From positions 1 through 37,446 of the IMG/VR virus record IMGVR_UViG_3300049489_000326: a DNA stretch of 37,446 nucleotides. One strand, given 5' to 3'. Positions 1,595-37,283 of the stretch are shown here, piece by piece. Position numbers and translations under genes: made by a program. How positions within the stretch are numbered: position 1 is the first letter of the stretch; every line of letters starts with the position of its first letter. This DNA comes from a virus. Below the pieces are notes generated by a model, which saw nothing but the letters and a program-made list of their open reading frames with translations, ran no database searches and was not told the origin of the DNA.

Positions 1595-2745
1595 CAGAGC
1601 ACCTGCACCATGTCGGCGGTCGTGCGGATTACCTGCGTGGCGGTCGGGATCGTGTCACCCACCGGCGCGATCACGTTCGATCCGTCGCTCGCGACGACCA
1701 ACCCCGGCACGCGCCGGAGCGCCCGCACGATGTCGGCCACATACAAGGTCGCGCCGGGTGCGAGACTGTTCACGGCCGCGGTCACGACCGCGATAGCCTG
1801 ATCCGCCACCGCGACGGTATCGACGTTCGCGCGGAAGCGCAGCGCCAACGTGACCGGCACGAGCGCGACGTTGGCGACCAGGACATCGACGGTCATGCCG
1901 GCGCCGCGATACGGGCGCAGGGCCGTGTTGACGTCTGCCACGATCGCGCTCGCGCGCGCGGGATAGGTCGGCGGGACGGTCGTGAAGTCGATCAACTGCG
2001 ACGTCACCTCGTCCGAGATGATCAACTGAAGCGGACCCGCGAGCGTGCCGTCGCTATTCTGAACCTCCACCAGTTTCGCCATCACGACGCCATCGACGTC
2101 CAGCGCGGCCGACTCGATCGCGGGAATGCCGCCAGGCCCGTTCGCGACGTCCCGCAGGGACGCGCGCGTCCGAAATGCGTCGTCGAGTTCTCGGTCATCG
2201 CCCCCGAACGACGCGAGCGTGTTCGTGCAGGTTAGGTCGGTCGGGCTCCCGGCGGGTGGGTTCGTGATCGACGTCAACATGCCGGGCCCAATCCGCTGAC
2301 CCGAGCCGGCCAAAATCGACCGCACCGGAACATTGACGGGCCCACTCGTCCCGCCCGGAAACACAACCGCGCCCGTACTGGCGTACTCAACACCCGTCGA
2401 GGTGCGGAACTTCGTCCCCTTCGGGATCGTCAAGTCGCCCCCGATCGCCACGCCGGTCCTGACCTCGACCGTACAGGTCGCCGTCGAGGCAGAATTGCGG
2501 CGCACGTTCGACCGATCCCAAGCCAGTTCGTCTAACCGGGGGCCACGCGCGTTCGCCCACACGGTCCCGCTCTGGAGTTCCACGAGTGCGCCCACGCATT
2601 CATCCCCAACCGCCGTTGCGGCTGACAGGAACGCGTTGACGTCGCTTCCGGGGTTTTCCGCGACGGATCTGCTGATCAGCGGGTTCTGCTGAAGCGCGGC
2701 CGATTCGGCGATCCTGAATAGCGCGGTCGAGCTGGGAAAGTCCAT
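1594..2745 (-). CDS. Baseplate J / gp47-like wedge protein
   Basis: This 383-residue protein matches the length and architecture of the baseplate J family (P2 gpJ, Mu gp47, T4 gp6 C-terminal region). The N-terminus has a helix with NPGSDVNAFLSAATAVGDE, followed by LDELAWDRSNVRRNSASTA, where J proteins state their length-dependent 'L-D-A-x-A' segment. A beta region with LTIPKGTKFRTSTGVEY and VPVRSILAGSGQRIGPG is typical of the family. The ELDDAFRTRASLR segment matches the conserved E-(S/T/L)-D-(E/D)-x-(F/L)-R-x-R motif. The protein forms the wedge ring around the hub. The stop overlaps the next start, so expression is coupled. Confidence 0.85.
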   Translation of the reverse strand: MDFPSSTALFRIAESAALQQNPLISRSVAENPGSDVNAFLSAATAVGDECVGALVELQSGTVWANARGPRLDELAWDRSNVRRNSASTATCTVEVRTGVAIGGDLTIPKGTKFRTSTGVEYASTGAVVFPGGTSGPVNVPVRSILAGSGQRIGPGMLTSITNPPAGSPTDLTCTNTLASFGGDDRELDDAFRTRASLRDVANGPGGIPAIESAALDVDGVVMAKLVEVQNSDGTLAGPLQLIISDEVTSQLIDFTTVPPTYPARASAIVADVNTALRPYRGAGMTVDVLVANVALVPVTLALRFRANVDTVAVADQAIAVVTAAVNSLAPGATLYVADIVRALRRVPGLVVASDGSNVIAPVGDTIPTATQVIRTTADMVQVL

Positions 2746-10686: not shown

Positions 10687-10715
10687 ATCGTACCAGCGCG
10701 CCTGTGCGCTGTCAA
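10687..10715 (-). promoter_or_regulatory. Sigma70-like promoter for the tube gene
   Basis: A perfect -35 TTGACA (10715-10710, overlapping the sheath stop codon) is followed by exactly 17 nt and a -10 TACGAT (10692-10687, four of six consensus bases). The predicted start is near 10680, leaving a leader of ~100 nt before the tube ATG. The placement after the sheath gene supports separate high-level tube expression. Confidence 0.55.
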
Positions 10716-12775
10716 CCAACCACGGACGTGCGAACCAAAGACTGCCCGACCTCGGTCTGGAGCACGATCGTGCGCGCGATCGGGATCATCTTCCACCGCG
10801 TGATCACGACGTAGATCCCCTGCGCGAGCGAGGCGGCCGTGTTGCCCGACTTCTCGTCGATCTCGTACCACTCGATGCGGGCCGCCGCCTTGTTATTAGG
10901 CGACAGCAACTCGGTCCCGAACGCGGTGATCTCCGAGATGACAGAATCCTTCCAGGGCTCCGTCATGGGCAACTTCGAGTAGCTGTTCAGGCGCTCAGCC
11001 ATGCTGTCTTGGACGAAGTCGGCGAAGCGACGCCGATTGATGTCGGTCTGGCCCGACGTCAGGGACGTCGTCACGCTGGACTGGAACACCGCCCCGCTGG
11101 TGCGGTCAATCCGAAGTCCGACAATCCCGAGCGCCTTCATGCGGATGTACTCCGCCATCGTGAGCGTGGGGGCGTTCCGCTGAAGCCCAAGCACGCTCGC
11201 CATGACGGTCGGGATCGGCTCTACAGCCTGCCCGACGTCAAGTTCGGGGCGCAGCACCGACTCGACCGACGCCAGAAGGGCATCCGCGGTCATGTCGAGG
11301 CGCCCGTCCTGCACGTAGTCGCCTGACGCGGTCTTGATCGTGTACCCGACCGCCTCCGGGATGTAGGTCGTGTAGCCCGGCCAGGCATAATCGACGCGCT
11401 CGTTCCGGTTCGCACCAACACCCGGCGCCGAGTTCCCGAACGCGGTCGCGGTCGAGACCGTCGTCAGGAGCGGCGAGATGATCGTTCGGCGCCCGCGCCC
11501 GTTTGCCGAACTGGTCAAGACGTGCTGGCGCAGGTACGACCGGATTGTATCGCTGGACCGCGCCGACAGGATGATGTTGACTTCGCTGACGGGCGCCTGA
11601 TCGCTCAGGAAGGCGTCGATCGCGGTCGCGTAGAGGGCATCCACGGTCGCGCTCGAGACCACGTTCGCGGCCTGAATCGCGGCCGTGAAGGCGGTCGTGG
11701 AGCCCACGATCGTTCGTGCGCCCAACCCCGAAAGCGGATCCCAGGTCGAACCCGTCAGGGCAGTCGGGACCGTCAGGGGGGTCAGGACCGTACCGGCCGA
11801 ATACGCGGTCGAGCCTGAAGCGCTCCCGGTCGAGTCCGTCAGGGGTCGAATCGGGACAGTGTAGCCGCCCACGTCCGCAGCGGCGTACCCGCCAGGTCCC
11901 GCAGTACCGCGCACGACCGTCAGGGCCGAGTCCGCATCCGAACTCGAGTGCAACCGCCACGGCACGTTCGACTGAAGCGTCCACGCGAAATTGGCACCGT
12001 CGAGGCGCTCCACGACCAAGTTCGACGACGCCGCCACCGGATCCGTCGCGACCCGGTACGTGCCGGCCTCACCCGCAGGCGCGACCGCGCCGGCGTTGTT
12101 GTACCCGATCACGATGATGTCGCCCTTCTTGGCGCCAATACCGGACCCGTCCGCGCGCACGACAGCGTCCCACGCGCTTCCGCCCGTGAAAGTCTGCGTG
12201 GCCGCGCTAGCGCCGCTCGTGGTGGCACCGCCAGTACCGTCAGCCAGGATCGTCTTCGCGGTGAAGTCCACCCGCGTGCCGATCCGAATCCGAGCAGCAC
12301 CGACCCGGAACTCACGCCCGGCCGCGATCGAGGCGCCTTGAACCTGCACGACCGGGGCCGCATTGGTCGAACCGACGCACATCGGGAGACTACGGAAGAA
12401 CCGCGCCCCCTTCGCGCTACAGAGGTTCACGGGCGCGAGAATGAGTCGGCTGTACGACTTCCCCCGAATGGCTGCGAAGCCGTTGCCGTTCGAGACGCCA
12501 AAATCGCCGATCGTCTCATCCCAGCCGCCGAACTTGTCAACCATGTCGGCCGCGGTCGTGACTTCCTGCGGGAGCGTGTAGGTCGTGATGTTGCCCGACC
12601 CGTCCGCGGTCGTGCAGTAGCGCATGTCCGCGAACTCGCCCACCATCCCGACCACGCCGGTACCCACGCCCGCAATTGAGCCGGGGGGCGGCAGGTCGAT
12701 GATGGCGACGCCTTCGATTTGCCGCAACACATCAGCACCGGGGAAGTACCCGAACCGACGAATGAATCCTGCCAT
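10712..12775 (-). CDS. Tail sheath protein
   Basis: This 687-residue protein has the sheath position, right before the tube gene, and a typical sheath sequence. The N-terminus carries RRFGYFPGADVLRQIEGVAI and the proline-rich LPPPGSIAGVGTGVVG arm. A long central beta domain is rich in G, T, A and V. The C-terminal domain has ERLNSYSKLPMTEPWKDSVI and EITAFGTELLSPNN, and ends in ARTIVLQTEVGQSLVRTSVVG-like strands (written here in part) that build the inter-subunit mesh. An AGGAGA Shine-Dalgarno precedes ATG 12775. It should drive contraction. Confidence 0.87.
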   Translation of the reverse strand: MAGFIRRFGYFPGADVLRQIEGVAIIDLPPPGSIAGVGTGVVGMVGEFADMRYCTTADGSGNITTYTLPQEVTTAADMVDKFGGWDETIGDFGVSNGNGFAAIRGKSYSRLILAPVNLCSAKGARFFRSLPMCVGSTNAAPVVQVQGASIAAGREFRVGAARIRIGTRVDFTAKTILADGTGGATTSGASAATQTFTGGSAWDAVVRADGSGIGAKKGDIIVIGYNNAGAVAPAGEAGTYRVATDPVAASSNLVVERLDGANFAWTLQSNVPWRLHSSSDADSALTVVRGTAGPGGYAAADVGGYTVPIRPLTDSTGSASGSTAYSAGTVLTPLTVPTALTGSTWDPLSGLGARTIVGSTTAFTAAIQAANVVSSATVDALYATAIDAFLSDQAPVSEVNIILSARSSDTIRSYLRQHVLTSSANGRGRRTIISPLLTTVSTATAFGNSAPGVGANRNERVDYAWPGYTTYIPEAVGYTIKTASGDYVQDGRLDMTADALLASVESVLRPELDVGQAVEPIPTVMASVLGLQRNAPTLTMAEYIRMKALGIVGLRIDRTSGAVFQSSVTTSLTSGQTDINRRRFADFVQDSMAERLNSYSKLPMTEPWKDSVISEITAFGTELLSPNNKAAARIEWYEIDEKSGNTAASLAQGIYVVITRWKMIPIARTIVLQTEVGQSLVRTSVVG

Positions 12776-15437: not shown

Positions 15438-16850
15438 TCACTCGCCGTGCTCGATGCAGCCGATGCGCTTGTAGCGCGCCGCGCTGCCCGTGGTGGCGTC
15501 GGTCCGCTTCGCGTAAGCGCCAACCCAGCGCCACGTGGTCGAGACCTGATCCATGTTGCGGTTCTGCGGGCCGCGGATGATCATCTTGATCCGGTCCGTG
15601 TTGACCTGGATCGAGTTCGCGGTGATGCGCGGGTCCACGACCTCGCCCGCCATCCCGACCGGGCTCTTGTACTGCGCGACGTCCTGGCTGTACTCGATGA
15701 GCCCGCCCACGCCGGAGAACAGGATGCGGTGGATCGGCGTACCGGTCGTGGTGCCGTTGTTATACAACTCACCCACGAACGGGTCCTGCTGGCTGTAGGT
15801 GGCGGTCAAGCCGCCCACAACCGTCTCGGTGTTGGGCGCCTCGGTATTCTTGATGAACGTGGTGCCCATCATGCGCCCGAGCGCGAACGCCTGCATGTAG
15901 TGCGAATCGGGCAGGCTCGTCATCATGCGCTGGAACTCCGTGTCGTTGAGGAGCTTCGCCTCGCTGATCGGGTCCATGTGTGCGTGATAGGTCCCATCCG
16001 CGAACGCGCGGACGTTGGACTGCCGGAAGCGCGCCACCATCGTGCGCACGTCTGCCAGGGTCGGGACGTCGGACGAGCCCACGTCATCGACCTTGTTGCC
16101 ACCACCGACGCGCACGAGCGCGGTACGGTCCTCCGCGATCACGTAGGCACGGTCCGAGACCGTCACGGCGCCACCCGCCAGCGTGAGCGTACCGGGACCG
16201 TACTCATCACCGGCCACGTCCGGGGTGAAGCCCGTCACGGTCCGGGACACCTCGGCCGGCGTGGTGTCGTAGATGCGAATCTTGAGCGGGTTCGACGCCG
16301 ACACGGTCTCGAACCGGACCTTCGCACCTGCGGGCAGGTCGGGGCGTCGCGCACGAGTGAACCCGTTGAGGCGCTTGACCCGAAGGGTGGTCACACCCGA
16401 CTGGGCCCCGTCCGCGACAGTGTGGCCCGAAAGCGCGATCGCGAACGCCTCATTACGGGCCAGACGGTTCATGGTCTGGCCGGCGTGCATACCGAGGATC
16501 TGCGCGTTCTGCATGAACAGAGACGCGATCGCGTTCGCGTCGGTGGGGAGGTCGGTGTCGATCGACTTCCCGAGTTGCCCCAGGGTAGCCTCCCACTGCT
16601 CGATCTGGTAGGTCGCGACGGTCGGGTCCGTGCGGGGCGCGACCGGGGTCAGGTCCACAGGGATCAGACCGGTCCCGGTGAAGATTTGCATGTCGCCGAC
16701 GACGCCGCCTGCCGGCCAGTTCTCCTTGGCCGTGCTCTCACGAAAGAGCTGCTCCGGGAACAGCGCGTCGTGAAACTGTCGCTCCAGGTAGTTGTCCTGG
16801 ACGATGCTGCGAACCTCGGGAGACTGAACGATAATCGAGAAATCGGCCAT
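15438..16850 (-). CDS. Major capsid protein (HK97 fold)
   Basis: This 470-residue protein directly follows the scaffold gene. The N-terminal ~40 residues form an arm (FSIIVQSPEVRSIVQDNYLE). E-loop-like and P-domain segments include NWPAGGVVGDMQIFTGTGLI and ATLGQLGKSIDTDLPTDANA. An A-domain region has MMTSLPDSHYMQAFALGRMM and the segment TFIKNTEAPNTETVVGG. The length and layout resemble N4 gp56-type capsid proteins. An AAGGAC Shine-Dalgarno precedes ATG 16850. No maturation protease gene is visible nearby. The HK97-type capsid assignment is good; the exact family is inferred. Confidence 0.82.
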   Translation of the reverse strand: MADFSIIVQSPEVRSIVQDNYLERQFHDALFPEQLFRESTAKENWPAGGVVGDMQIFTGTGLIPVDLTPVAPRTDPTVATYQIEQWEATLGQLGKSIDTDLPTDANAIASLFMQNAQILGMHAGQTMNRLARNEAFAIALSGHTVADGAQSGVTTLRVKRLNGFTRARRPDLPAGAKVRFETVSASNPLKIRIYDTTPAEVSRTVTGFTPDVAGDEYGPGTLTLAGGAVTVSDRAYVIAEDRTALVRVGGGNKVDDVGSSDVPTLADVRTMVARFRQSNVRAFADGTYHAHMDPISEAKLLNDTEFQRMMTSLPDSHYMQAFALGRMMGTTFIKNTEAPNTETVVGGLTATYSQQDPFVGELYNNGTTTGTPIHRILFSGVGGLIEYSQDVAQYKSPVGMAGEVVDPRITANSIQVNTDRIKMIIRGPQNRNMDQVSTTWRWVGAYAKRTDATTGSAARYKRIGCIEHGE

Positions 16851-23003: not shown

Positions 23004-23375
23004 TCACCACCCCCGGATCTGAATGGCTTGCGGCCCAACCTGCACAACCCCGTCTGAAAACGTCAGCGCCACCATGGCGTTGATGGTGGCGGGGTAGGTG
23101 GTTTCGGCAGCATCCCACACATGCCGCACCGTTATGGTAGATTCGGTCGCGGACAGGATGCTCAACGGCCACACCGCCGTTTCGGGTTGCGCAACAATCA
23201 GGCGGTCCCCGTAGGGTACGCCCACGCGGACGAACGTCTGATTCGTGCTGATATGAACCCGCAACTCCGCAGCCGTGCAGGTACGCAGGTCACGCCCAGA
23301 ACCACCCGACACGACTTCGACGTCGAAGTGCTCCGCAGAGCCCGCGCCCGTGTAGGTTCGAATGGTTGCGGCCAT
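23004..23375 (-). CDS. BppU-like beta-sandwich protein, paralogue 1
   Basis: This 123-residue protein is paralogous to the product of 27348-27668. Both carry a 'd.r.CTaaEL.vH' element near the centre (LRTCTAAELRVHI here), an aromatic 'HvWdaaET' strand, and a shared C-terminus LTFSDGVVQVGPQAIQIRGW, compared with LTFPDGVRRAGPVEIIVRGW. The fold looks like the N-terminal BppU domain of tail proteins, a small immunoglobulin-like beta sandwich. It starts with 'MAATIRTYTGAGSAEHF'. The two copies flank four genes, which suggests module duplication. The role is likely structural. Confidence 0.5.
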   Translation of the reverse strand: MAATIRTYTGAGSAEHFDVEVVSGGSGRDLRTCTAAELRVHISTNQTFVRVGVPYGDRLIVAQPETAVWPLSILSATESTITVRHVWDAAETTYPATINAMVALTFSDGVVQVGPQAIQIRGW

Positions 23376-27347: not shown

Positions 27348-27668
27348 TCACCACCCCCTTACGATGATTTCAACAGGACCAGCGCGTCGCACGCCATCCG
27401 GGAACGTGAGGAGCACCATCGCGCGCAAACACGCCGCTGACGCGGTCTCGGTCGCGAGCCATTCATGCCGGAGAATGAGCAAGCGCGCCGTTGGGGTTCC
27501 GTAAATCGAAAGCGCCCAAGTCTCGTCGGCGCCGTTCCGATGCACGAGCAACTCCGCGCCCGTGCATAGCGTCAAGTCCAGACCGGTCTGCCCAGAACTC
27601 AAGCGCAACTCAAAGGAATCCGGGGCCGCCGTACCGGCGTAAACGTCGATGTTCGGGAATGTGCTCAT
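27348..27668 (-). CDS. BppU-like beta-sandwich protein, paralogue 2
   Basis: This 106-residue protein uses ATG 27668, which overlaps the upstream stop (ATGA); an in-frame upstream start is less likely. It is similar to the 23004-23375 product over its full length: LTLCTGAELLVHRNG, ILRHEWLATETASAACL and a near-identical last block LTFPDGVRRAGPVEIIVRGW. It has a BppU-like single beta sandwich. It may be a baseplate- or fibre-type attachment domain. It precedes the frameshifted gene by 3 nt. Confidence 0.5.
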   Translation of the reverse strand: MSTFPNIDVYAGTAAPDSFELRLSSGQTGLDLTLCTGAELLVHRNGADETWALSIYGTPTARLLILRHEWLATETASAACLRAMVLLTFPDGVRRAGPVEIIVRGW

Positions 27669-28540
27669 GCGACCTCGACTTTCGTACCCGTCTGATACGA
27701 CCACGCCGGAACGCCACAACCAGGTGTCCACGGGAGCAGGACAGCTCGGTCGTGCGGGCGGTTCGGCGGGTGTGTCCAGGCACCACCCTGAAGGGAAGGG
27801 CTCACCGGGGCACCAGCGGGCATGAAGAACAACCCGCCGGGCTGCGCGACCTGCCCGTGTAGGTGCATGGAGTCGATCCCAACGCGATTGTCCAACGGGG
27901 CCCCCGTCACGTCATCGACTAGTTCGGTCCAACGGTTCAGCAAGCCTGGCAAGACCGTCCTGGCAAGTTCGGTCTCGCCCATCGCCCCAACCGCGAACGC
28001 CTGCGCGGTCTCGGTCCGGCCCACGCGAGAAATCTGGTACTCGATACCGTCGATCGAACTTTCGAGCGTGGTCGCGACCACGGTGGCGGTGTCGCCGCGC
28101 ATAACGGAGCGCTCAAAGTCCGCAACGGCGCTTTGAGTTACGCGCCCGATCACGCGTGCGAACACGCCCTGCCGCTGCTGCTGCAACGTCGCCAACCGGA
28201 GCGCTTCCAGCACGGTGTTGCGTGGCTGCGCTGGTGCGCCCAGGCGCGTCAGTAGGCGGCGTGCAAATGCGGCCCCGCGCGCCATGTCGGACCCGGCTTG
28301 TGCCACTAGAGCATCTTGCACGCGCGCGAGCGCCTGCCCCATGATGGCACGGAGCCGAATCGCCGAGATTCCGATCACGCGCCCGGAGGGCAAAGTCGCG
28401 TCGGCGATCAACCCCCGCACGGCGCTCAGGATCCACGACCGCTCCCTTCGGAACACGTCCAGCAGGGCCAGCACCGCGATGGCTTCAAGCCACCGAATCG
28501 CGTCCTGGCTCTGTTCAGCGGCGTCGTCGCGATAACTCAC
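27665..28540 (-). CDS. Minor head protein, Mu gpF / SPP1 gp7-like
   Basis: This 291-residue protein is helical at the N-terminus. Its C-terminal half has the minor head pattern: SRVGRTETAQAFAVGAMGET (the 'R.E...a...g' helix), RWTELVDDVTGAPLDNRVGI, then DSMHLHGQVAQPGGLFFMPA, where the family has 'C..lhG.v....g.f..p'. The usual Cys before H is replaced by SM here. The last residues have PWTPGCGVPAW. Proteins of this family attach to the portal and help DNA entry. The start is GTG 28540, overlapping the upstream stop (GTGA). Confidence 0.68.
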   Translation of the reverse strand: MSYRDDAAEQSQDAIRWLEAIAVLALLDVFRRERSWILSAVRGLIADATLPSGRVIGISAIRLRAIMGQALARVQDALVAQAGSDMARGAAFARRLLTRLGAPAQPRNTVLEALRLATLQQQRQGVFARVIGRVTQSAVADFERSVMRGDTATVVATTLESSIDGIEYQISRVGRTETAQAFAVGAMGETELARTVLPGLLNRWTELVDDVTGAPLDNRVGIDSMHLHGQVAQPGGLFFMPAGAPVSPSLQGGAWTHPPNRPHDRAVLLPWTPGCGVPAWSYQTGTKVEVA

Positions 28541-28890: not shown

Positions 28891-30233
28891 GCGTCAGTAT
28901 AGCGCAACCGTGTTCCGAAACGTACGATTCTGGCGTGCGTGTCCACGCTCACGAGCGAGAGGTTGGCGGCCGGCGTCCCGCCCCCGCCCGCGTCCGCTGC
29001 CGTGTAGGTGGTCAAGCCTGTGTTGACCTGGATCCAAACATGCAGGTGTGCGCTACCGGGTGACGCCTGCACCCATGCGGGTGGAGTGATCTCCGCAAGC
29101 GTGAGCACGAGTTCCTCGTTGATGTCCGCTGCCGTAATGGCCAGCGTGGCCACGTTCGTGGACCAACTCGCCCACGCCGGCATGGCCTGTCCGGTCCCGA
29201 TCTTCGTCCAACACCACCGCACATTGAAGGCGTAGTTGCCCGACCCATTACCCCGCGGGATTGCGTGCAGGTGCGGCTCCACGATGTAGCCATCCCAGCC
29301 GTGCGGGAACTGAAATCCAAACGAGATCGCGTCGGCCTGGTTGTATTGAAAGAACTTCTGGACGTACTGCCCGTCCTGCACGGTCTTGACCACCAAGGCG
29401 GACACGCCGAGCCCTGACTCAACAGGTGTCGGTAGCACGTCCGTCCAGACCCCAAGGTCCTGCACGCAGACGTCCCTGACCGACACAAGCATGTGCCCGT
29501 TGTTGTTGTGCTCATACGTGACCGTCCCGAGCATGACCGCGTGCTCGTTCGGGATCACGGTTGACCACGCGCCCGGCACGGACGCGGACAGGTACACACG
29601 CGTGCCTTCGGGGTATCCGTGTGTGTTGAGGTCGTGAACGGTCCCGAAGACCGTCACCATGCCGGACTGGTTGTTCAGGATGTCGGTCGTGGCCATCCCG
29701 ATCAGTTCGCCGCGGTGCCCCTCTTCCGCCACCGCGAGCGCGACGATGACGCGGTTCCCGGTCGATCCCGAAATATAGACCAGCGTCCCGTTTTGGATTG
29801 TGGTGCCGGTGTGGTTCCGCGCCACAAAGGTGAGTTCCTGCCCAAGCGCGTTCGTGGAGTTCGAGTACCCCGTCTGAAGCGCGACCGTCCCGAGTTCAGC
29901 ATCCCAGTACATCGTACCGGGGACGTGCGTGAGCGGAGGGTCTGCCAGCGTGCTGAAGCGTAGCCAATCCGTCGTGGCGAGTTCGCCGCCAGTTGACCCC
30001 AGGTATTCCTGGTCGTCATTCGGGATACCGTGCGGGGTGTAGCCGATCTGGAATGGCGATCGTGCGCCCAAGACACCGAAAATCACATCCGGCTCGGGAG
30101 ACAGGACAATCACCTGCCCGGCGCGAAGCGAACCCCGCATTGGGTACGACAACGTCAGCGGGCACGCATGCGGGTTCGTCAGGAGCGTCGGCATGCCCAA
30201 GTGTGCCCCGATTTGGGGCACCAGGCTACGCAC
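28887..30233 (-). CDS. Fibre-like virion structural protein
   Basis: This 448-residue protein has beta-rich sequence with fibre features: GTMYWDAELGTVALQTG (typical of fibre 'D.e.gtl.l...y' motifs), VARNHTGTTIQNGTLVYISG, which is the 'a.n.tG..i.nG..v...g..g' pattern of fibre domains, and HDLNTHGYPEGTRVYLSASV. The C-terminal ~180 residues form a further beta domain (WDGYIVEPHLHAIPRGNGSG), and Gly-rich AADAGGGGTPA lies near the end. The start could be GTG 30233 or ATG 30194 (MPTLLTNPHACP). No strong Shine-Dalgarno separates them. A head- or tail-fibre role is inferred. Confidence 0.55.
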   Translation of the reverse strand: MRSLVPQIGAHLGMPTLLTNPHACPLTLSYPMRGSLRAGQVIVLSPEPDVIFGVLGARSPFQIGYTPHGIPNDDQEYLGSTGGELATTDWLRFSTLADPPLTHVPGTMYWDAELGTVALQTGYSNSTNALGQELTFVARNHTGTTIQNGTLVYISGSTGNRVIVALAVAEEGHRGELIGMATTDILNNQSGMVTVFGTVHDLNTHGYPEGTRVYLSASVPGAWSTVIPNEHAVMLGTVTYEHNNNGHMLVSVRDVCVQDLGVWTDVLPTPVESGLGVSALVVKTVQDGQYVQKFFQYNQADAISFGFQFPHGWDGYIVEPHLHAIPRGNGSGNYAFNVRWCWTKIGTGQAMPAWASWSTNVATLAITAADINEELVLTLAEITPPAWVQASPGSAHLHVWIQVNTGLTTYTAADAGGGGTPAANLSLVSVDTHARIVRFGTRLRYTDA

Positions 30234-30960
30234 GGAACTGGTACGGTTCCGAATTTGAAATACTCGGCCAGCAGTACCGCCGCGGCGCCCCCGAGATAAA
30301 CACGCGCGCGTCTGGTTGTTGGCGCCCTGGGCACGCCCCCCAAGCCTGTACGCCGTCCTGATGCACCGGATGTGCGGTCAGGCTGAACCTGCTGAACCGC
30401 ACCGGCGTGACCGTGCTGGCGATCCCGAGCGCGGTCGCGATCCCGAACAGTTGATCGTTGTCGGGCGTTTCTGCCACGGCCGCGCACGCGCGTGCGTTCA
30501 TGGCGACCGGGCCAGTACCGACGAGCGGTCCTGTCGTGCTGACGCGCTCGAGGTCGCGCGTGCTAAAACTCGCGGCGGTTTCGTGCGCGCGCGAGACCGT
30601 CTTGACGCTGTACCCGACCGTCGTGGTCGTGCGGGCTGCCTCGAGCAACCCCGGCACGTTTGAGTACCGGGTCAGGACCATGTCGTCGTCGAGCACACAC
30701 GTCACGTCTGCGGGCCAGTTCGCCAGCCCGGCCCGCAAGGCGCCAAAGGGCCCGATGAGGTCTCGGAAGAACAAGCAATCCTGCACGCACGCGGTTGCGG
30801 GCGCGGACGCGAACGTGTCCGCCGCAGCCGCACCGTACCCGCACGCCACGACATGTACGGGGATGCGCCGTAGCGCGCGCTCCTGTTCGATCTGACGCAG
30901 GAGCGCGAACACGCGCGCGATCCGTCCGTAAATGGTCGTGACCAGAATCGCGGACGTCAC
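30226..30960 (-). CDS. GT-A-like glycosyltransferase family protein
   Basis: This 244-residue protein starts at GTG 30960, where its first bases overlap the upstream stop (GTGA). The N-terminal region has SAILVTTIYGRIARVFALLR and IPVHVVACGYG, beta-alpha units of nucleotide-sugar binding. ADVTCVLDDDMVLTRYS contains a D-D-D motif (residues 91-93), as used by GT-A enzymes to hold a metal and sugar nucleotide. A later AETPDNDQLFGIATALG could be an acceptor-site acidic motif. It may modify virion proteins or host surface sugars. The active-site assignment is a family inference. Confidence 0.55.
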   Translation of the reverse strand: MTSAILVTTIYGRIARVFALLRQIEQERALRRIPVHVVACGYGAAAADTFASAPATACVQDCLFFRDLIGPFGALRAGLANWPADVTCVLDDDMVLTRYSNVPGLLEAARTTTTVGYSVKTVSRAHETAASFSTRDLERVSTTGPLVGTGPVAMNARACAAVAETPDNDQLFGIATALGIASTVTPVRFSRFSLTAHPVHQDGVQAWGACPGRQQPDARVFISGAPRRYCWPSISNSEPYQFRA

Positions 30961-31355
30961 AGGACCGAGACGACCGGATCTACCGTGGGGGGCTTGATGA
31001 TGTCCACGTACACCCACGAAGGCGACTTCGCGAGCGCGCGTTCAAACACGGGCAAGCACTCACGACAACTGAACGTCTGCCCAATCCTGACGCACGACAC
31101 AGGGGGCTGTGTCCGCCCGTTCGCGTACAAGAGCGTCGATAGGTTCTGGACGAAGCTCTCCGGCAGGCACGCCATGTCGGGGTAGTGCGCGAGCGCGTCG
31201 GGCTTGGTCGCGTATGAAATTGCCTGCACGACCGGCGCGGCGCCGCAGCACGCGCACTTGGCGTCCTTCGGCAGCCCCAGCGCGGCAAGTTCGTCAGGCG
31301 AATACTTGTCGAACACGCGTTGCTGGCCCGTCTTCCCTACCTTGATCAGCGTCAT
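30957..31355 (-). CDS. Zinc-ribbon-like small protein
   Basis: This 132-residue protein contains several Cys residues: C34, C36 and C37 (KCACCGAAP), C63, C88, and C97 with C100 (SCREC). The spacing suggests two metal-binding knuckles. The C-terminal part SCRECLPVFERALAKSPSWV is helical. It lies between portal-side genes and the glycosyltransferase and is translationally coupled to both (ATGA and GTGA). The function is unknown; a metal-binding structural role is inferred. Confidence 0.45.
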   Translation of the reverse strand: MTLIKVGKTGQQRVFDKYSPDELAALGLPKDAKCACCGAAPVVQAISYATKPDALAHYPDMACLPESFVQNLSTLLYANGRTQPPVSCVRIGQTFSCRECLPVFERALAKSPSWVYVDIIKPPTVDPVVSVL

Positions 31356-31846
31356 CGAATTTCCTTTCCAGATTCCCAGCGAGACCGCGCGCGCGCGGTT
31401 GGTTCAACCCCAGTTTGCGGTGCTGGGCGCCGTGGCACGCCAGCACGGCGCAGTCGCGCCTCTTTGACGATCTGGCTCTCCAGCACGGAGGCTTCGTTCA
31501 GGCACCGGTACCGCTTTGCGGCCGACCCGTACTCGATTGCGGCGTCGAGGTATCCGAGTCGAACCAGCGCAAGAAACTCCGGCTTCACGAGTTTCCAGCG
31601 CGCGGTCCAGAAGGCCGCGCTGGCCCACCCGTCTGCGGGCTCGAGCGCGATCGACACCACACGGTACGTGGCGTGGTCAACCTCGTCCTCCCGCACGGTC
31701 CCGGCAGCGTACTTCTGCGCGACCGGGTCCTGCGGACAATCCCACGGGTCGAAGACCTCGCCGCGCTTGTTCCGGTACTCGACCGGCTTCTGGCGCGTCG
31801 TCGTATCCCAAATGACGCGCCCACCGATCGTCACGACCGTGCTCAT
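31352..31846 (-). CDS. Unknown phage protein downstream of portal
   Basis: This 164-residue protein is not identified. It contains VIWDTTTRQKPVEYRNKRGE and FDPWDCPQDPVAQKYAAGT, then a helix ARWKLVKPEFLALVRLGYLD and a basic C-terminal tail rich in Arg/Pro. It follows the portal gene by ATGA overlap and precedes the zinc-ribbon-like gene in the same way. A head-associated function is plausible by position. Confidence 0.35.
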   Translation of the reverse strand: MSTVVTIGGRVIWDTTTRQKPVEYRNKRGEVFDPWDCPQDPVAQKYAAGTVREDEVDHATYRVVSIALEPADGWASAAFWTARWKLVKPEFLALVRLGYLDAAIEYGSAAKRYRCLNEASVLESQIVKEARLRRAGVPRRPAPQTGVEPTARARSRWESGKEIR

Positions 31847-33552
31847 TCGTCCTTCTCCGCTGCCTCGTCCGCTTCAGCGTCATCGGCTTCGTCGGCTTCG
31901 TCGGCTTCGTCGGGCTTCGCTTGATCGGGCGGAACCGCCTGCACGCGGTTGCGTGCGTCAAGTTCGCGTTGGATCTGGTCATTCTTCTCGGCCAGTTCCT
32001 TCTCGGCCTTGAGCGATTCGAGCAAGAGCCCGACGTTCTCGACACCGAACATCTCGGCCACGAACGAAACGGCCGTGTTGGTATCGATCAACTGTCCCTT
32101 CGCCGCCAAGGCCGCGTTGGTGGCGATTTCGGTGCGTTCGATCGACGGCCGGAAGTACGGCGGCCACTTCAGCGTGACCTCCTCCCCCTTCCCGATCGTG
32201 ACTTCTCCGTACTCGATTCCACCACCGCCCGGCAAGACGGTCTCGCGCTTGGGGAGCTTGATCTTGACCTTCCGACCGATCTTGAGCGCCATTTCGAGTA
32301 GGGTCACGACGCCAGTCTCGCCGTACTGCTCACGGTACAGGTCGGCCTTGTCCATCATGGTCGAGAACTGGCGCTCCACCTCGGCGGCGGTCTTCTCCTT
32401 ACGCTTGGTCCCCTCTGCATCCAGAACGCACTGCGCCAGCGTGAGCGCGCGGTCCTCGAGCGCGGCCATCATCTGAAGACCGATGTCCATCGCGCGCCCG
32501 TTCGACTCCAGCAGGCTCGCACTGCCGCCGGTCTCGACCTGGATCGCACCAGAGCTTCCGCGCTTGATCTCGTCGAAATCGCGATTCGACTCCACGACGG
32601 CGGTCGGGTCCGCGTTTGCCAGCACGGCGTGAAATAGCTGCGACCGGAGCGCGTCGGCGCAAAAGATCATCTCGAACGCGCCGAAGCAATCCGGCTGCCC
32701 GTCCACCGCGTCGTCATTGGGAGTGTTCTGGATCCACACGACCGGACAGAAGCCCAGCCCGTGCGGGACCGACGTGGCGGGATACCGGGACCACTCAGGC
32801 TCTTGAAACTCGTCCGACTTCAAGTCCAACGGGTGCTTCTGCTGACGCTTCGGGTCGTTCACGGGCACGTCCTGCCAGACCGTGTCGGACGTCCCGTCGA
32901 TCACACGCCTGTACCAGAACTTCTCGTCGCGGACGACCTTGGTCTCGCGGTCCGTGACGCGCTTGGTGTACTGGTAGCGCTTGTCCAGCGCGAGCACGTC
33001 TCCTGTGACGGGGTCAAGCACTGGCGTACACCACCGCGCGTCGTGGATGACCAGTTTCGGGCACCCGTTCTGCACCGTGATCTGCACCGCGACGGACCCG
33101 AGCGCACCGCCGACCTGCCGCGCGTATCGCATCCGGGACCAGAAGCGCGTCTTCTTCGCGAACGCGGTCAACCAGTCCGCGGTCTCGTTGTCACCCGGCA
33201 CCAAAATCGTCGGACATCGCCCGCGCGAGAACAGCAGCGACGTGAAGCGATCCACCACCACCTTGGCGATGTAGTACGGAGCGGTCGGGCGCCGATCCAG
33301 AAGCGGGACCTGCCCGGACGCGTCCGTGATCCAGTACCCCGGCGGGAGGTAGTCGCCCAGCACGACGTGCGTGGCAGGCTCACCCGTCCACCCGGTCCTG
33401 CGCGCTTCATACTTGTCGCACGAGTAAAACTGCGCGTACCCGGACAAGGTCTTCTGTCGATCGGTCCCCCATGAGCCGCCGGCCAGTTGAGACGCCCACG
33501 CGGGGATCAGACTGCGCGCCAGGTCGGCGTCCGGGACCGTTCTGCTGCTCAT
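31843..33552 (-). CDS. Portal protein
   Basis: This ~569-residue protein is encoded downstream of the terminase. Portal-type features: an N-terminal region KYEARRTGWTGEPATHV, RPTAPYYIAKVVVDRFTSLL, the central RMRYARQVGGALGSVAVQIT (typical clip/wing region), DALRSQLFHAVLANADPTAV and LAQCVLDAEGTKRKEKTAAE, followed by the crown-like C-terminal helices (EREQF-like positions). The last ~22 residues are acidic and repetitive (DEADEADEADDAEADE). ATG 33552 is preferred over GTG 33588. It forms the dodecameric DNA channel at the capsid vertex. Confidence 0.82.
   Translation of the reverse strand: MSSRTVPDADLARSLIPAWASQLAGGSWGTDRQKTLSGYAQFYSCDKYEARRTGWTGEPATHVVLGDYLPPGYWITDASGQVPLLDRRPTAPYYIAKVVVDRFTSLLFSRGRCPTILVPGDNETADWLTAFAKKTRFWSRMRYARQVGGALGSVAVQITVQNGCPKLVIHDARWCTPVLDPVTGDVLALDKRYQYTKRVTDRETKVVRDEKFWYRRVIDGTSDTVWQDVPVNDPKRQQKHPLDLKSDEFQEPEWSRYPATSVPHGLGFCPVVWIQNTPNDDAVDGQPDCFGAFEMIFCADALRSQLFHAVLANADPTAVVESNRDFDEIKRGSSGAIQVETGGSASLLESNGRAMDIGLQMMAALEDRALTLAQCVLDAEGTKRKEKTAAEVERQFSTMMDKADLYREQYGETGVVTLLEMALKIGRKVKIKLPKRETVLPGGGGIEYGEVTIGKGEEVTLKWPPYFRPSIERTEIATNAALAAKGQLIDTNTAVSFVAEMFGVENVGLLLESLKAEKELAEKNDQIQRELDARNRVQAVPPDQAKPDEADEADEADDAEADEAAEKDE
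31883..31913. repeat. 9-bp tandem repeat in the portal 3' end
   Basis: A unit TCGGCTTCG is repeated about 3.4 times. On the coding strand it encodes (Asp-Glu-Ala) triplets in the acidic portal tail. Such repeats can change in copy number by slippage. Confidence 0.7.
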
Positions 33553-33559
33553 GTGCTCA

Positions 33560-33588
33560 ACTATACCGAAGCGCCGTGTCGGTGCCAC
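33560..33588 (-). promoter_or_regulatory. Candidate promoter just ahead of portal ATG
   Basis: TATAGT (33565-33560, five of six consensus bases) lies 7 nt before the ATG at 33552. A weak -35 GTGGCA lies 17 nt upstream (33588-33583). If active it would make a leaderless transcript, because the start site would be almost at the ATG. The portal gene has no clear Shine-Dalgarno sequence. Confidence 0.3.
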
Positions 33589-33597
33589 ATGGGCGCG

Positions 33598-33678
33598 TCA
33601 TCGCCTCTTGTCCAGCAAAGCCAGCACGGCCGGCGCAACGAACATGAGCGCCAGCACGACCGATCCGAACACGCTCAC
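33598..33678 (-). CDS. 26-residue membrane micro-ORF between terminase and portal
   Basis: A GTG at 33678 overlaps the terminase TGA (GTGA), matching the junction style of this phage. The ORF encodes 26 residues: hydrophobic VVLALMFVAPAVLALL, then basic DKRR. That is one predicted transmembrane helix with a positive-inside end. An ATG at 33696 in the same frame gives 32 residues. It may be a small holin-like or regulatory peptide; function is unknown. Support is from open frame, junction and composition only. Confidence 0.4.
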   Translation of the reverse strand: MSVFGSVVLALMFVAPAVLALLDKRR

Positions 33679-35138
33679 CTGCGCAACTTCGCCCATGACT
33701 TCACGCCGTGGTGGACCTTGGTCTGGCGCGCACCCTCGCGGGCGATCCAGAGCGCCATGAGGTGATCACCTGTATGGGTGCGGGGGTCGTAGTAGAGCGC
33801 CTGCGTCACGCACGCGTGAACCTCAGGGTGCAGGTGCCCCGCCGGATTGTTCGGGATGATCCACTTCCCCGCCTCCATCTCGGCCGCGATCGACTCGATA
33901 CCGAACTCGGGGGAGTGCTTGTTGTTGCCGGTGTTGAACGGCCGCACCGGCACGGCACTTCGTCCTCGCGTGAACTGAAGGATGAACGCCTGCGCGGCGT
34001 TGCTTTCGACGTACACGATCGAGTGAAACCGATCGTGTACGTCGATGATGCGGTCCACGATGTCGGGCCCGGACCACCGCCCCGAAACGACTTCGAGGAT
34101 CTCGCGCGTCTCGTCAGGGTGAATCAGCAGGGTCACGATCGCGGTGAAGTCGGCGCTGTCGCGCTGCGATACCGCCAAGTCCACGCCCGTGATGGTGCGA
34201 TAGCCTTCCGGGAGGGCCGACGTGTTGAGGCGAAGGCACGGATTTCGCCCCTCACCCGCCGCGAGGGCCTTGTCGATCCAGGCACGCTTGAAGCGCGAAT
34301 CTGCATCCGACCGGGCCGTACACATAAGCTGGCGGTTGAACTCCACCACCCCGAGCGCCTCTCTGCGGTCTTGAATGCGCTCGAGCGGCCACTTCGCCGG
34401 CCAGGTCGGCACCCCATCACGAATCACCGGATACCGGACCGCGTACCAGCGCGGCGACCGGGCCCAGTCGTGCATGATGTCGTCCTTATCCCAAGCCGTA
34501 CCGACGCACCACACGCGCGCGTTTTGGGTACAGCGCCCCTCGAGCGTGGACTTGTACCACGCCTTCGTGTCCTCCCGCAGGGCCGCCGACAAGGTGGACT
34601 CGTAGTCGAGGAAGTCATCCAGGATCAGGAGATCAATACGAGAGCCCAGGATGTTGCCGTGAAGGCCACACGTCTGCAAAGTCGGATCCTTCGCGCGCGA
34701 CTTGCGCTGCACGGACAACATCATGGCCGTCCAGGGCATATCCTCGGCGGGCTTGATGTCGGGAAATACCTTCTGGAACTCCGGGCTGTCCAGAATGTAC
34801 TTCGAGATCGCCATGCAGATTTTCTTCGCCATCCCGGCCGTATTGCTCACGATGGCGATACGGATTTCGGGATTGCGCCCAATCTCGTACAGGGCACGAC
34901 AGATCGAAATCTGCGACGTCTTGCCGGCTTCGATGTGGCTCCAAATCAGGACGTTTTTGTGCTGGTCCAGCAGGTCATGCCACTCGTAGTGCATGTCCTG
35001 AAGCACGACCGACGTATGGGTCTCGTCGTCCTTCATGACGTAGCTGGCGAACACGGCCGGGTCGTGCCGCGCGCGCACGATCACGTCCTGCTCGATTTGG
35101 TCCAGCGCCGAAAGGGTCGTGGGATCCAGGTCGTCCAT
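33675..35138 (-). CDS. Terminase large subunit
   Basis: This 487-residue protein has ATPase and nuclease domains. The Walker A region is WSHIEAGKTSQIS with Lys73, and the Walker B is DLLILDDFLDY around residue 169. SNTAGMAKKICMAISKYIL is motif-like coupling sequence. The nuclease domain has TGVDLAVSQRDSADFTAIVT near residue 316, with the first catalytic Asp, and YVESN near residue 376 with a second acidic residue. It cuts and translocates phage DNA into the prohead. A long inverted repeat lies inside the nuclease part (34006-34045). Confidence 0.88.
   Translation of the reverse strand: MDDLDPTTLSALDQIEQDVIVRARHDPAVFASYVMKDDETHTSVVLQDMHYEWHDLLDQHKNVLIWSHIEAGKTSQISICRALYEIGRNPEIRIAIVSNTAGMAKKICMAISKYILDSPEFQKVFPDIKPAEDMPWTAMMLSVQRKSRAKDPTLQTCGLHGNILGSRIDLLILDDFLDYESTLSAALREDTKAWYKSTLEGRCTQNARVWCVGTAWDKDDIMHDWARSPRWYAVRYPVIRDGVPTWPAKWPLERIQDRREALGVVEFNRQLMCTARSDADSRFKRAWIDKALAAGEGRNPCLRLNTSALPEGYRTITGVDLAVSQRDSADFTAIVTLLIHPDETREILEVVSGRWSGPDIVDRIIDVHDRFHSIVYVESNAAQAFILQFTRGRSAVPVRPFNTGNNKHSPEFGIESIAAEMEAGKWIIPNNPAGHLHPEVHACVTQALYYDPRTHTGDHLMALWIAREGARQTKVHHGVKSWAKLRR
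34006..34045. repeat. 15-bp perfect inverted repeat inside terminase gene
   Basis: TCGACGTACACGATC (34006-34020) and GATCGTGTACGTCGA (34031-34045) are exact complements around a 10-nt loop. It is within the coding region for DVHDRFHSIVYVE. A 15-bp perfect palindrome is unlikely by chance, so it may be a regulatory hairpin, a DNA-processing site or a terminator. Confidence 0.65.
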
Positions 35139-35140
35139 GC

Positions 35141-35926
35141 CTACACCGTATCGACCCGAACCCCGAACGTGGGTGCGGCCTTACCGCCTTCGACGACCCG
35201 CAGGGTTGTCTTGCCCTCGGCACGCTCGAGCGCCTTCGCGGCCGACGCGATCCTGATCTTGGCCTCGTTGACGTCGATGTCGCTCTGGGATGAGCCAACT
35301 TCCTTGATGATGTTGGTGGGCTCACCGAAGTGCAGACGCTCAAGCTCCATCACGCCCCGGACGGTCGCGGTCGTCTTGTTGAGCAACTCGTTCGCGGCCT
35401 TGAAGAACTGCATCGTCTCGCCGAGTTTCATCGGCGCCACCACGAGCGGGGGCTTCACGTCAGCCTCGCCGTTCAGGAGCGCGTCTTCGTACTTGGCCCA
35501 CTGCTCAGCCTTGTTGGCCTCGAGTTCGATCCGGTCCCGCATGGTCGCGCCGAGGCGGTCCAGATCCGACACCAGGCGGGTCGCCTGGTTGATCAACAAC
35601 GACGCCATCCCGCGCGCTTGCTTGACCGTCGCGAACTCTTGCGCGCGTGCCTGAACCGCATCCGCACGCGCGCGGGTGCTTTCGTCCTCGCGGGCGCGGC
35701 GCTTCTCCTGCTCGATCCTGGCCAGTTCGGCCCGGCTGGCCTCCTGAATGGCCTGCACTTCGAGCCGGATTGGGCGAAAGCCCTGCTTCGGCCACCCGTC
35801 TTCCCAGCCCGTCTTCGCGACCGCGGGCGTGACCGCAGCCGCGCGTGCGGCCTCACTGTAGCGCGCCGGCGCGGCCGTAAAGGCGTCCACGAGCGCGCGA
35901 TACTGAACGTCGTTGATCCTAGCCAC
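35141..35926 (-). CDS. Terminase small subunit-like protein
   Basis: This ~261-residue protein immediately precedes the large subunit gene. The N-terminus has a helix-turn-helix-like start (RINDVQYRALVDAFTAAPAR, then YSEAARAAAVTPAVAKTGWE), suited for DNA recognition. A long charged coiled region follows (RAELARIEQEKRRAREDEST), as in small terminase oligomers. The C-terminal part has AKIRIASAAKALERAEGKTT. GTG 35926 is preferred; a TTG at 35947 would add 7 residues. It should recognise the packaging site and regulate the large subunit. Confidence 0.65.
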   Translation of the reverse strand: MARINDVQYRALVDAFTAAPARYSEAARAAAVTPAVAKTGWEDGWPKQGFRPIRLEVQAIQEASRAELARIEQEKRRAREDESTRARADAVQARAQEFATVKQARGMASLLINQATRLVSDLDRLGATMRDRIELEANKAEQWAKYEDALLNGEADVKPPLVVAPMKLGETMQFFKAANELLNKTTATVRGVMELERLHFGEPTNIIKEVGSSQSDIDVNEAKIRIASAAKALERAEGKTTLRVVEGGKAAPTFGVRVDTV

Positions 35927-35960
35927 GATCGAAAGCGTGGGGAGCAATTCCGCTCATGTC

Positions 35961-36006
35961 AAACAGCAAAACCCGCCTACGACGGGGAGAACGTCGCGGG
36001 CGGGTT
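35961..36006 (-). terminator. Strong intrinsic terminator after the ferritin gene
   Basis: On the minus strand, AACCCGCC and GGCGGGTT pair (35999-36006 with 35970-35977), with an inner CGACG/CGTCG stem and a 7-nt loop. The stem is followed by TTTTGCTGTTT. It lies between the ferritin stop (36027) and the terminase small subunit start, so it separates two transcription units. Confidence 0.8.
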
Positions 36007-36026: not shown

Positions 36027-36497
36027 TCAGATCAATTGCTCGAACTCGGCCGCGCTCTTGCAAATCCGCGCCGTGCGGAGCAGGTCGAGCGCGCCCGCCT
36101 CCTCCTCGACCTGCTCGGCCAGTTGCAGGCGGGCCCAGATCGCACACGCGGGATCGCCTTCCCGGTCGGCCGTCTCGGCCACACTCGCGATCGTGCGCGT
36201 GACGAGTTTCTCGTGCTCCCAGATCATCTCGGCCAGTTTGACGTAGTCGCTCACGCCGGCGATGCGGTCTTGGGCTCGGTCCGGCATGGTCGCGCGCACG
36301 AGTGAACCGTCCCGGTCGGCGATGTGGGCGATCCACATACGCGCGTGGGCGTGCTCCTCGCTGGCGTGGCCGCGCAGGTCGGCGCCGTACCGGCGCCAGC
36401 CCATCAGGTCAGCCTGCAACGACGCCCAAAGGTACAACTCCGCGCTGAACAGCTCGAGTTCGACCTGCTTGTTGAGAAGATCATTCAGTGTCGCCAT
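36027..36497 (-). CDS. Non-heme ferritin (FtnA-like)
   Basis: This 156-residue protein is a complete ferritin. The first helix has LNKQVELELFSAELYLWAS. The second has HASEEHAHARMWIAHIADRD. The third has IWEHEKLVTRTIASVAE, and the last has WARLQLAEQVEEEAGALDLL. Aligned by eye to E. coli FtnA, the ferroxidase ligands are E15, E48, H51, E96 and E132, with E47, E128 and E131 as the third-site residues, all present. The heme-binding Met of bacterioferritins is absent from the expected position. ATG 36497 has a perfect AAGGAGGT ribosome site. It overlaps the upstream membrane gene by 17 nt. It should oxidise and store iron; ferritins are very unusual in phage genomes. Confidence 0.85.
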   Translation of the reverse strand: MATLNDLLNKQVELELFSAELYLWASLQADLMGWRRYGADLRGHASEEHAHARMWIAHIADRDGSLVRATMPDRAQDRIAGVSDYVKLAEMIWEHEKLVTRTIASVAETADREGDPACAIWARLQLAEQVEEEAGALDLLRTARICKSAAEFEQLI

Positions 36498-36807
36498 CTT
36501 GAACCTCCTTCGGGGGAGGCGGAACAGAGCCTCCCGGCAGTACCGACACGGGCGCGTGCGCGCCAGGCTGCGCCCCAACGAGGCACGTCCCGAGCGCCAA
36601 GATGACGACCAGCCCGAGGTCGCTCCAGTCCTGCACGCCACCAACCTGCTGCGCCACCACGCCCGCCACAGCCGCGATCGTGGCCGGCAACCACCGGTAT
36701 TGCAGCGGCAGAAACTCGTACAGGGGCGCGGCCACCTTCACGTACCGGAGCGCGATCAGGGCCGCCGACGACAGAAACGCCGTAATGACCACGATGTTGA
36801 TTTCCAT
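36481..36807 (-). CDS. Holin-like membrane protein
   Basis: This 108-residue protein has three predicted transmembrane helices: residues ~4-23 (VVITAFLSSAALIALRYV), ~42-57 (WLPATIAAVAGVVAQQV), and ~68-83 (LGLVVILALGTCLVGAQ). The C-terminus is Pro-rich and then acidic (SVPPPPKEVQDGDTE). The size and three-helix layout recall class I holins, but it lies upstream of ferritin and no endolysin is nearby. A transport or anchoring function for the ferritin cassette is an alternative. The ribosome site is weak (GCCGGC). Confidence 0.5.
   Translation of the reverse strand: MEINIVVITAFLSSAALIALRYVKVAAPLYEFLPLQYRWLPATIAAVAGVVAQQVGGVQDWSDLGLVVILALGTCLVGAQPGAHAPVSVLPGGSVPPPPKEVQDGDTE
36503..36519 (-). 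promoter_or_regulatory. Ferritin Shine-Dalgarno with a possible anti-SD hairpin
   Basis: AAGGAGGT (36510-36503) lies 5 nt before the ferritin ATG. CCTCC (minus 36519-36515) just upstream can pair with GGAGG of the SD across a 6-nt loop, hiding it. Translation of the upstream membrane gene could open this stem, which would couple the two genes. Confidence 0.5.
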
Positions 36808-36819
36808 GCCGGCACGTTA

Positions 36820-37059
36820 TCACTGCCGCCACGTCCCGTGAAGGCAAATAGGCGTACAGCCGGGCTCGCAGATCAACAATTTCCGACACGTCCCGCCGGC
36901 GCAGAACGGGCAGGATGGCTCTCGGTAGAGCCATGCCTGGTCGTCCGGAACAGGCACGATCGTCAGGCCCGCCTCCTCGACCTCGTGCGGCCACTGCGCC
37001 GCGTCGAATGCGTCCTCGTCCGGCACGCAGTGAACGGGGTCGAAGGGGAGTTGGATCAT
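36820..37059 (-). CDS. Cys-rich mini-protein (zinc-ribbon-like)
   Basis: This 79-residue protein starts at ATG 37059, which overlaps the upstream stop (ATGA). The first half is acidic and Pro/Asp-rich (VPDEDAFDAAQWPHEVEE). The C-terminal part has seven Cys in total in the protein; CPFCAGGTCRKLLICEPG is a knuckle-like run, followed by CTPIC. It could bind zinc or iron. Its neighbours are membrane proteins and ferritin, so a metal-handling role is possible but not proven. Confidence 0.5.
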   Translation of the reverse strand: MIQLPFDPVHCVPDEDAFDAAQWPHEVEEAGLTIVPVPDDQAWLYREPSCPFCAGGTCRKLLICEPGCTPICLHGTWRQ

Positions 37060-37283
37060 GAACCAGCACCGAACAGGTGATGCAGCATGGTCCCGACAAC
37101 GTACCAGAACGCCACCGAGACGGCCAGGTGCTCCACCATGCCGGTCCAGGCCCACATCTGCCGCGCCTGCCGCTCCAGCAGGTTCACGCGCGGCCACGAC
37201 GTGTGGACCAGCAACCAAACCAGACAACCCGGCGCAACCAAACAGAAAACCGCCACCTTCACGATCACGATTACGAACTTCAT
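37056..37283 (-). CDS. Small membrane protein
   Basis: This 75-residue protein has two hydrophobic segments: residues ~3-25 (FVIVIVKVAVFCLVAPGCL) and ~53-71 (LAVSVAFWYVVGTMLHHLFG). It is the first gene after the AT-richer leader. There is no clear Shine-Dalgarno; the -10-like TATAAG lies 8 nt before the ATG, suggesting a leaderless transcript. Function unknown. It may be a holin-type or anchoring protein. Confidence 0.5.
   Translation of the reverse strand: MKFVIVIVKVAVFCLVAPGCLVWLLVHTSWPRVNLLERQARQMWAWTGMVEHLAVSVAFWYVVGTMLHHLFGAGS

Follow-up and report, generated by a model that had tools for sequence, protein, structure and literature searches.

A divergent FtnA-type ferritin gene with a complete ferroxidase site, next to the packaging genes of a contractile-tailed phage

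Iron has been proposed to shape phage infection, an idea known as the Ferrojan Horse hypothesis. What, then, is a ferritin gene doing beside the packaging genes of a phage, and does it belong to the phage at all? We address these questions for one locus in a 37,446-bp linear virus record from IMG/VR (IMGVR_UViG_3300049489_000326), referred to here in its entirety as the window.

36027 to 36497, minus strand (complement): FtnA-type ferritin gene with all ferroxidase ligands; ATG start, 156 aa; from family matches, alignment and predicted fold
36503 to 36510, minus strand: Shine-Dalgarno AAGGAGGT, a perfect match 5 nt before the ferritin ATG; read directly from the sequence

The initial annotation had described a complete 156-residue ferritin with a full set of FtnA-type ferroxidase ligands, and both parts of that description stand. 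The Pfam search that it had proposed gives a significant match to PF00210 (E 1.5e-16; 61 bits for a cut-off of 24.5), which places the product of this minus-strand ORF in the ferritin superfamily, and the top matches in a PDB sequence search are ferritins (E 1e-12); by these comparisons, the family match is far above chance. Against NF007638, the NCBIfam equivalog for non-heme ferritin (PRK10304), the protein scores 40.3 bits where the cut-off is 178, indicating a relative of that equivalog that lies outside its membership. A family without assigned function, phrog_16594, matches it weakly (E 1e-5) and matches other phage ferritins more strongly.

Alignments show that E15, Y22, E47, E48, H51, E96, E128, Q129, E131, E132 and E133 are all present, residues which correspond to the A, B and third sites known from bacterial FtnA. 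The A/B ferroxidase set (E, E, H, E, Q and E) is supplied by E15, E48, H51, E96, Q129 and E132, and the third (C) site glutamates by E47, E128, E131 and E132, following the established site roles in FtnA. In the main alignment, which comprises the window ferritin, 80 cellular ferritins and 11 other viral ferritins, every residue in this list apart from E131 (placed by a second alignment) is common to the window protein and 80/80 cellular sequences; the cellular set was chosen partly through its EQVEEE motif, so that the invariance of the motif there arises by construction; in the window ferritin, the ligands are present independently of that choice.

An AlphaFold2 monomer prediction made from an alignment of 73 natural sequences yields a confident ferritin fold (pLDDT 95.8, pTM 0.89), with predicted helices at residues 2-31, 35-61, 85-112, 116-145 and 149-155, that is, an A-D four-helix bundle followed by a short E helix. 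Foldseek searches of the PDB with this model return ferritins, the best with TM-scores of ~0.85-0.90. Structure prediction of the 24-mer had been suggested at the outset; the prediction covers the monomer, from which a 24-mer cage can be proposed with uncertainty, as the predicted C-terminal E helix spans only ~7 residues and leaves cage symmetry and stability uncertain. The protein thus has the four-helix fold, the ferroxidase ligands and the third-site ligands in common with bacterial and archaeal FtnA-type ferritins (E. coli, Campylobacter and Archaeoglobus structures), but differs from them in its low identity (at most 38%), a B-C region longer by a few residues, its short E helix and its phage gene context.

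That context consists of the following features, with all major genes of the window on the minus strand.

37056 to 37283, minus strand: 75-aa small hydrophobic (membrane-type) protein; ORF, no Pfam family match
36820 to 37080, minus strand: 86-aa ORF with a Cys-rich C-terminus; no Pfam family match
36481 to 36807, minus strand: 108-aa protein with about three hydrophobic segments, perhaps holin-like; ORF overlapping the ferritin start by 17 nt
35972 to 35986, minus strand: intrinsic-terminator-like hairpin, then TTTT, between ferritin and putative terS
35141 to 35929, minus strand: putative terminase small subunit (terS), from its position and from homologues preceding TerL in many related phages; no family match
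33675 to 35138, minus strand: terminase large subunit (TerL; phrog_38, E 4e-59), with 46 relatives in a search of viral contigs
31843 to 33588, minus strand: portal protein (phrog_145, E 8e-8)
15438 to 16850, minus strand: major head protein (phrog_1357, E 2.5e-7)
10712 to 12775, minus strand: tail sheath, contractile tail (phrog_23, E 2e-9)
1594 to 2745, minus strand: baseplate wedge (phrog_6, E 2e-33)

The family matches to TerL, portal, baseplate wedge, tail sheath and major head protein indicate a contractile-tailed phage. The ferritin had been placed upstream of terminase genes in a phage structural region, and so it is, with the refinement that a terminator-like hairpin precedes the putative terS. 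Since this hairpin separates the two genes, ferritin looks like the last gene of a unit upstream of the packaging genes; the hairpin (35986-35972) is weak on its own, because a terminator scan found 4 such sites where 2.4 were expected in the scanned region. Searches of Pfam, PHROG and phage sequences found no relative of the 108-aa protein. The 86-aa ORF, two genes upstream of ferritin, may bind metal through its Cys-rich C-terminus. Elsewhere in the structural region, the proteins at 23004-23375 and 27348-27731 appear by eye to be paralogues, with similar ends and motifs, and a DDD-motif protein in the head module (30226-31017) looks like a glycosyltransferase without matching a Pfam or PHROG family.

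Only 0.95 kb separates the ferritin gene from the end of the contig, its junction with the phage is known from one contig, and the genes beyond it are without known relatives. Such an arrangement could arise if the edge of the contig or of a provirus were host DNA, or if the assembly were chimeric, and an assembly error of this kind was a concern of the initial annotation. A scan of 2.9 million IMG/VR contigs for cellular-like ferritins indeed returned one locus (L153) in which the ferritin apparently sits in the host flank of a provirus, adjoining an integrase and an ispG-like gene, and which we rejected as a phage ferritin. For the window, however, we hold this explanation to be highly improbable. 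The composition of the gene (GC 0.66, GC3 0.87, codon usage z +1.5) fits the rest of the window, so that contamination with host DNA is not indicated and, on sequence grounds, is an unlikely source of the gene; the genes run on one strand throughout, with compact overlaps between the small ones, and the protein is extremely divergent from cellular ferritins. A TerL relative was found in none of 84,980 bacterial and archaeal genomes, and hence no prophage relative of this phage is seen.

A captured host gene had also been suggested. Recent capture, which would make the ferritin neutral cargo bordering the structural module, would suit a gene that the relatives lack and whose surroundings ahead of terS vary, but the distance to cellular ferritins argues strongly the other way. 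The best cellular match, from a genome scan and ~1,580 genomes, has at most 38% identity, and those ~1,580 genomes, taken from the phyla to which four reference loci belong, yielded no donor above 37% identity; a host that has been sampled is thus an unlikely source of a recent capture, and with phage-like codon usage added we give the cargo scenario hardly any credence. In the phylogeny, also proposed at the outset, the branch leading to the window ferritin measures 4.29 changes per site where the cellular median is 0.41 (~ten times); this very long branch is clear, but no sister is supported, and the tree position is unsure because the branches are long. Being so unlike cellular ferritins, the gene was probably acquired long ago, and the retention of all ligands of the A, B and third sites along such a branch argues for selection on the metal site. 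The sequence evidence confirms that 36027-36497 encodes an FtnA-type non-haem ferritin and supports its place in a phage.

Among the phage's relatives the gene stands alone. PF00210 matches in 0/45 related phage records, searched over their whole length, and the stretch upstream of terS varies from one relative to another, which together suggest that ferritin is an accessory gene; its absence from these records, many of them fragments, also suggests that the clade can do without it. In the phage whose TerL is nearest to that of the window, the protein upstream of terS (L002:2660-3325, 221 aa) carries repeated Cys-x-x-Cys motifs and is possibly metal-binding.

The explanation that we favor, and consider rather probable, is that of a phage-resident, catalytically competent classical non-haem ferritin that is expressed late and oxidizes iron. 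Its compact overlapping genes, strong Shine-Dalgarno and native codon usage count as support, as do the ferritin family matches, the ligands kept on a long branch, the predicted fold, the core ligands and purifying selection seen in other phage ferritins, and the published reading of phage Dps and bacterioferritin genes. The analysis establishes the identity of the protein, its ligands, its predicted subunit fold, its phage setting and its divergence, while the time of expression, assembly into a cage, oxidation of iron and any advantage for the phage are inferred. The gene would share a transcript with the small membrane genes, immediately before the packaging genes, probably late in infection, and its subunits would assemble into a cage. 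Fe(II) would be oxidized at the ferroxidase site and Fe(III) held in the cage, which would lower free Fe(II), lessen Fenton damage to phage DNA during replication or once packaged, and keep iron from the pool of the dying cell.

Phage ferritins had been called very rare, and our searches agree. Among 50,697 GenBank phage records, queried with the window ferritin and three other ferritins, there is no bona fide ligand-complete relative; the matches are confined to unverified records, namely fecal scaffolds and two Staphylococcus assemblies. Two of the fecal scaffolds, MT836766 and MT838721, which the window ferritin had matched, were rejected as bacterial chromosome pieces on reading, and the matches in Staphylococcus phage SA 1306/1298 Kay were left uncounted, these assemblies being unverified and unannotated. 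A scan of viral contigs with the window ferritin alone found no relative. Motif-guided scans of 2.9 million IMG/VR contigs recovered about a dozen with divergent ferritins, which is a lower bound because such scans depend on short peptide motifs. A match of the window ferritin in a defense library (E 0.0098) was judged to be chance. In the literature that could be searched, hardly any work addresses classical phage ferritins.

These other ferritins keep the core ferroxidase ligands in alignment, with E47 replaced in the L143-L149 group, and several lie near packaging or head genes. In L051 and L056, the ferritin is 1-2 kb upstream of TerL and portal. L144, L145 and L147 have the order TerL, portal, small gene, ferritin, one or more small genes, a protease-like gene and an MCP-like gene, the last two labels resting on order and appearance in L143-L149 and not on family matches; L143 and L146 are fragments showing the same order. 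In L149, another phage type, ferritin lies between TerL and portal. Two isolates, Enterocloster phage PMBT24 and Thomasclavelia phage TR-TP1, encode a ferritin-fold protein just after portal, in the portal-capsid slot, that has lost the ferroxidase ligands and whose Pfam match is absent or below cut-off. Other cases do not fit: ferritin is far from terL in L052 (~93 kb) and L054 (~15 kb), and in L053 no TerL was found. The gene orders are suggestive of a position that recurs across unrelated phages, close to terminase, portal or capsid genes, though the lineages are not all independent, as the ferritins of L149 and L143-L147 form one supported clade (SH-aLRT 98). Within L143-L147, dN/dS is ~0.09 for L143/L147 and 0.11 for L145/L146, the two closest pairs, which points to purifying selection on these ferritins.

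This positional pattern and the ligand-less versions make a serious rival of a different role, in which the protein belongs to the virion or to head assembly, its cage or fold lying in or on the capsid or neck, and any iron oxidation serves the particle or the injected DNA. In unrelated phages (the window, L051, L056, L143-L147 and L149), no more than a few genes lie between ferritin and a terL, portal or capsid gene, PMBT24 and TR-TP1 retain the fold in the portal-capsid slot despite ligand loss, 'Prohead protease' models in BFVD contain a ferritin/Dps-like part, and mass spectrometry of a Vi01-like phage detected, among other proteins, one that Phyre predicts to be a ferritin (PMC10892097). 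Set against this are the terminator-like hairpin between ferritin and terS in the window, the remote ferritins of L052 and L054, and the 45 relatives that have the same packaging genes and no ferritin. We judge a virion or head-assembly role unlikely overall, while virion association of the window ferritin is possible. A broader version, in which tailed phages without close kinship have recruited, or hold in common, a ferritin that is made late as part of the head/packaging module and travels in or on the virion, and in which the ligand-less Clostridia phage versions have a structural role, seems to us a shade more doubtful still; if true, it would mean an iron-handling cage inside the virus particle.

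How, then, does the window ferritin compare with its counterparts in viruses? The divergent IMG/VR ferritins L051/L056, L143-L147 and L149 (phrog_16594-type) resemble it as phage genes with core ferroxidase ligands and terminase, portal or capsid neighbors, but they come from different phage lineages and have ~20-26% identity to it. The PMBT24 and TR-TP1 proteins resemble it in ferritin annotation and in their slot in the portal-capsid region, and differ in their lost ligands. The best viral fold matches are A0A8D9C9X5 (Putative bacterial non-heme ferritin, uncultured marine phage; TM 0.89) and A0A8S5Q7U4 (Ferritin heavy chain, Siphoviridae sp. ctrzs15; TM 0.82), at 16-19% identity.

Two further ferritin subfamilies, the 12-mer Dps and the haem-containing Bfr, also occur in viruses. 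Dps of Gratiaviridae and Lactobacillus phages and bacterioferritin of a Bathyarchaeia virus and Flandersviridae belong to the same superfamily (PMC8008677, PMC6669764, PMC10904782, PMC11780533), whereas the window ferritin matches the FtnA type. Iron or oxidative-stress roles have been proposed for phage Dps (PMC8008677, PMC6669764), virus-encoded bacterioferritin is under purifying selection (PMC10904782), phage Dps and bacterioferritin genes have been read as acting on oxidative or iron stress (PMC8008677, PMC10904782), and bfr is present in Flandersviridae (PMC11780533). Infection by the Vi01-like phage was independent of TonB or FeoB in the strain tested (PMC10892097), and the PMBT24 ferritin is known by annotation only (PMC11035940). 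Phage genes of the ferritin superfamily are thus already known (PMC8008677, PMC6669764, PMC10904782, PMC11780533, PMC10892097, PMC11035940), and the window ferritin adds an unusually divergent one.

A divergent phage ferritin with all its ligands makes phage control of iron directly testable, and this one is a good test case because its active site is complete, its divergence extreme and its location packaging-side. Together with the ferritins beside packaging or head genes in unrelated phages, it offers concrete proteins with which to probe iron oxidation and storage by phages or carriage in the virion.

Several neighbors and relatives of these ferritins deserve mention in their own right. 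Between ferritin and portal in L149, a 118-aa protein (L149:5159-5515) shows a match to PF24729, the hairpin domain of Acb2/Tad1 (E 1.8e-8), suggesting from sequence a counter-defense (nucleotide sponge) gene in the ferritin's slot. The BFVD proteins with a part matching a ferritin/Dps-like fold are A0A6J7WIS1, A0A6J7WPK9 and A0A6J7XDU5, 'prohead protease' proteins of uncultured phages. In L054 (5572-7353), and also in L055, the ferritin domain is embedded in a 593-aa phage protein that has a weak zinc-ribbon match and a phrog_13953 C-terminus, and the neighboring proteins have common MNKIA.EL.RIAK-like N-termini.
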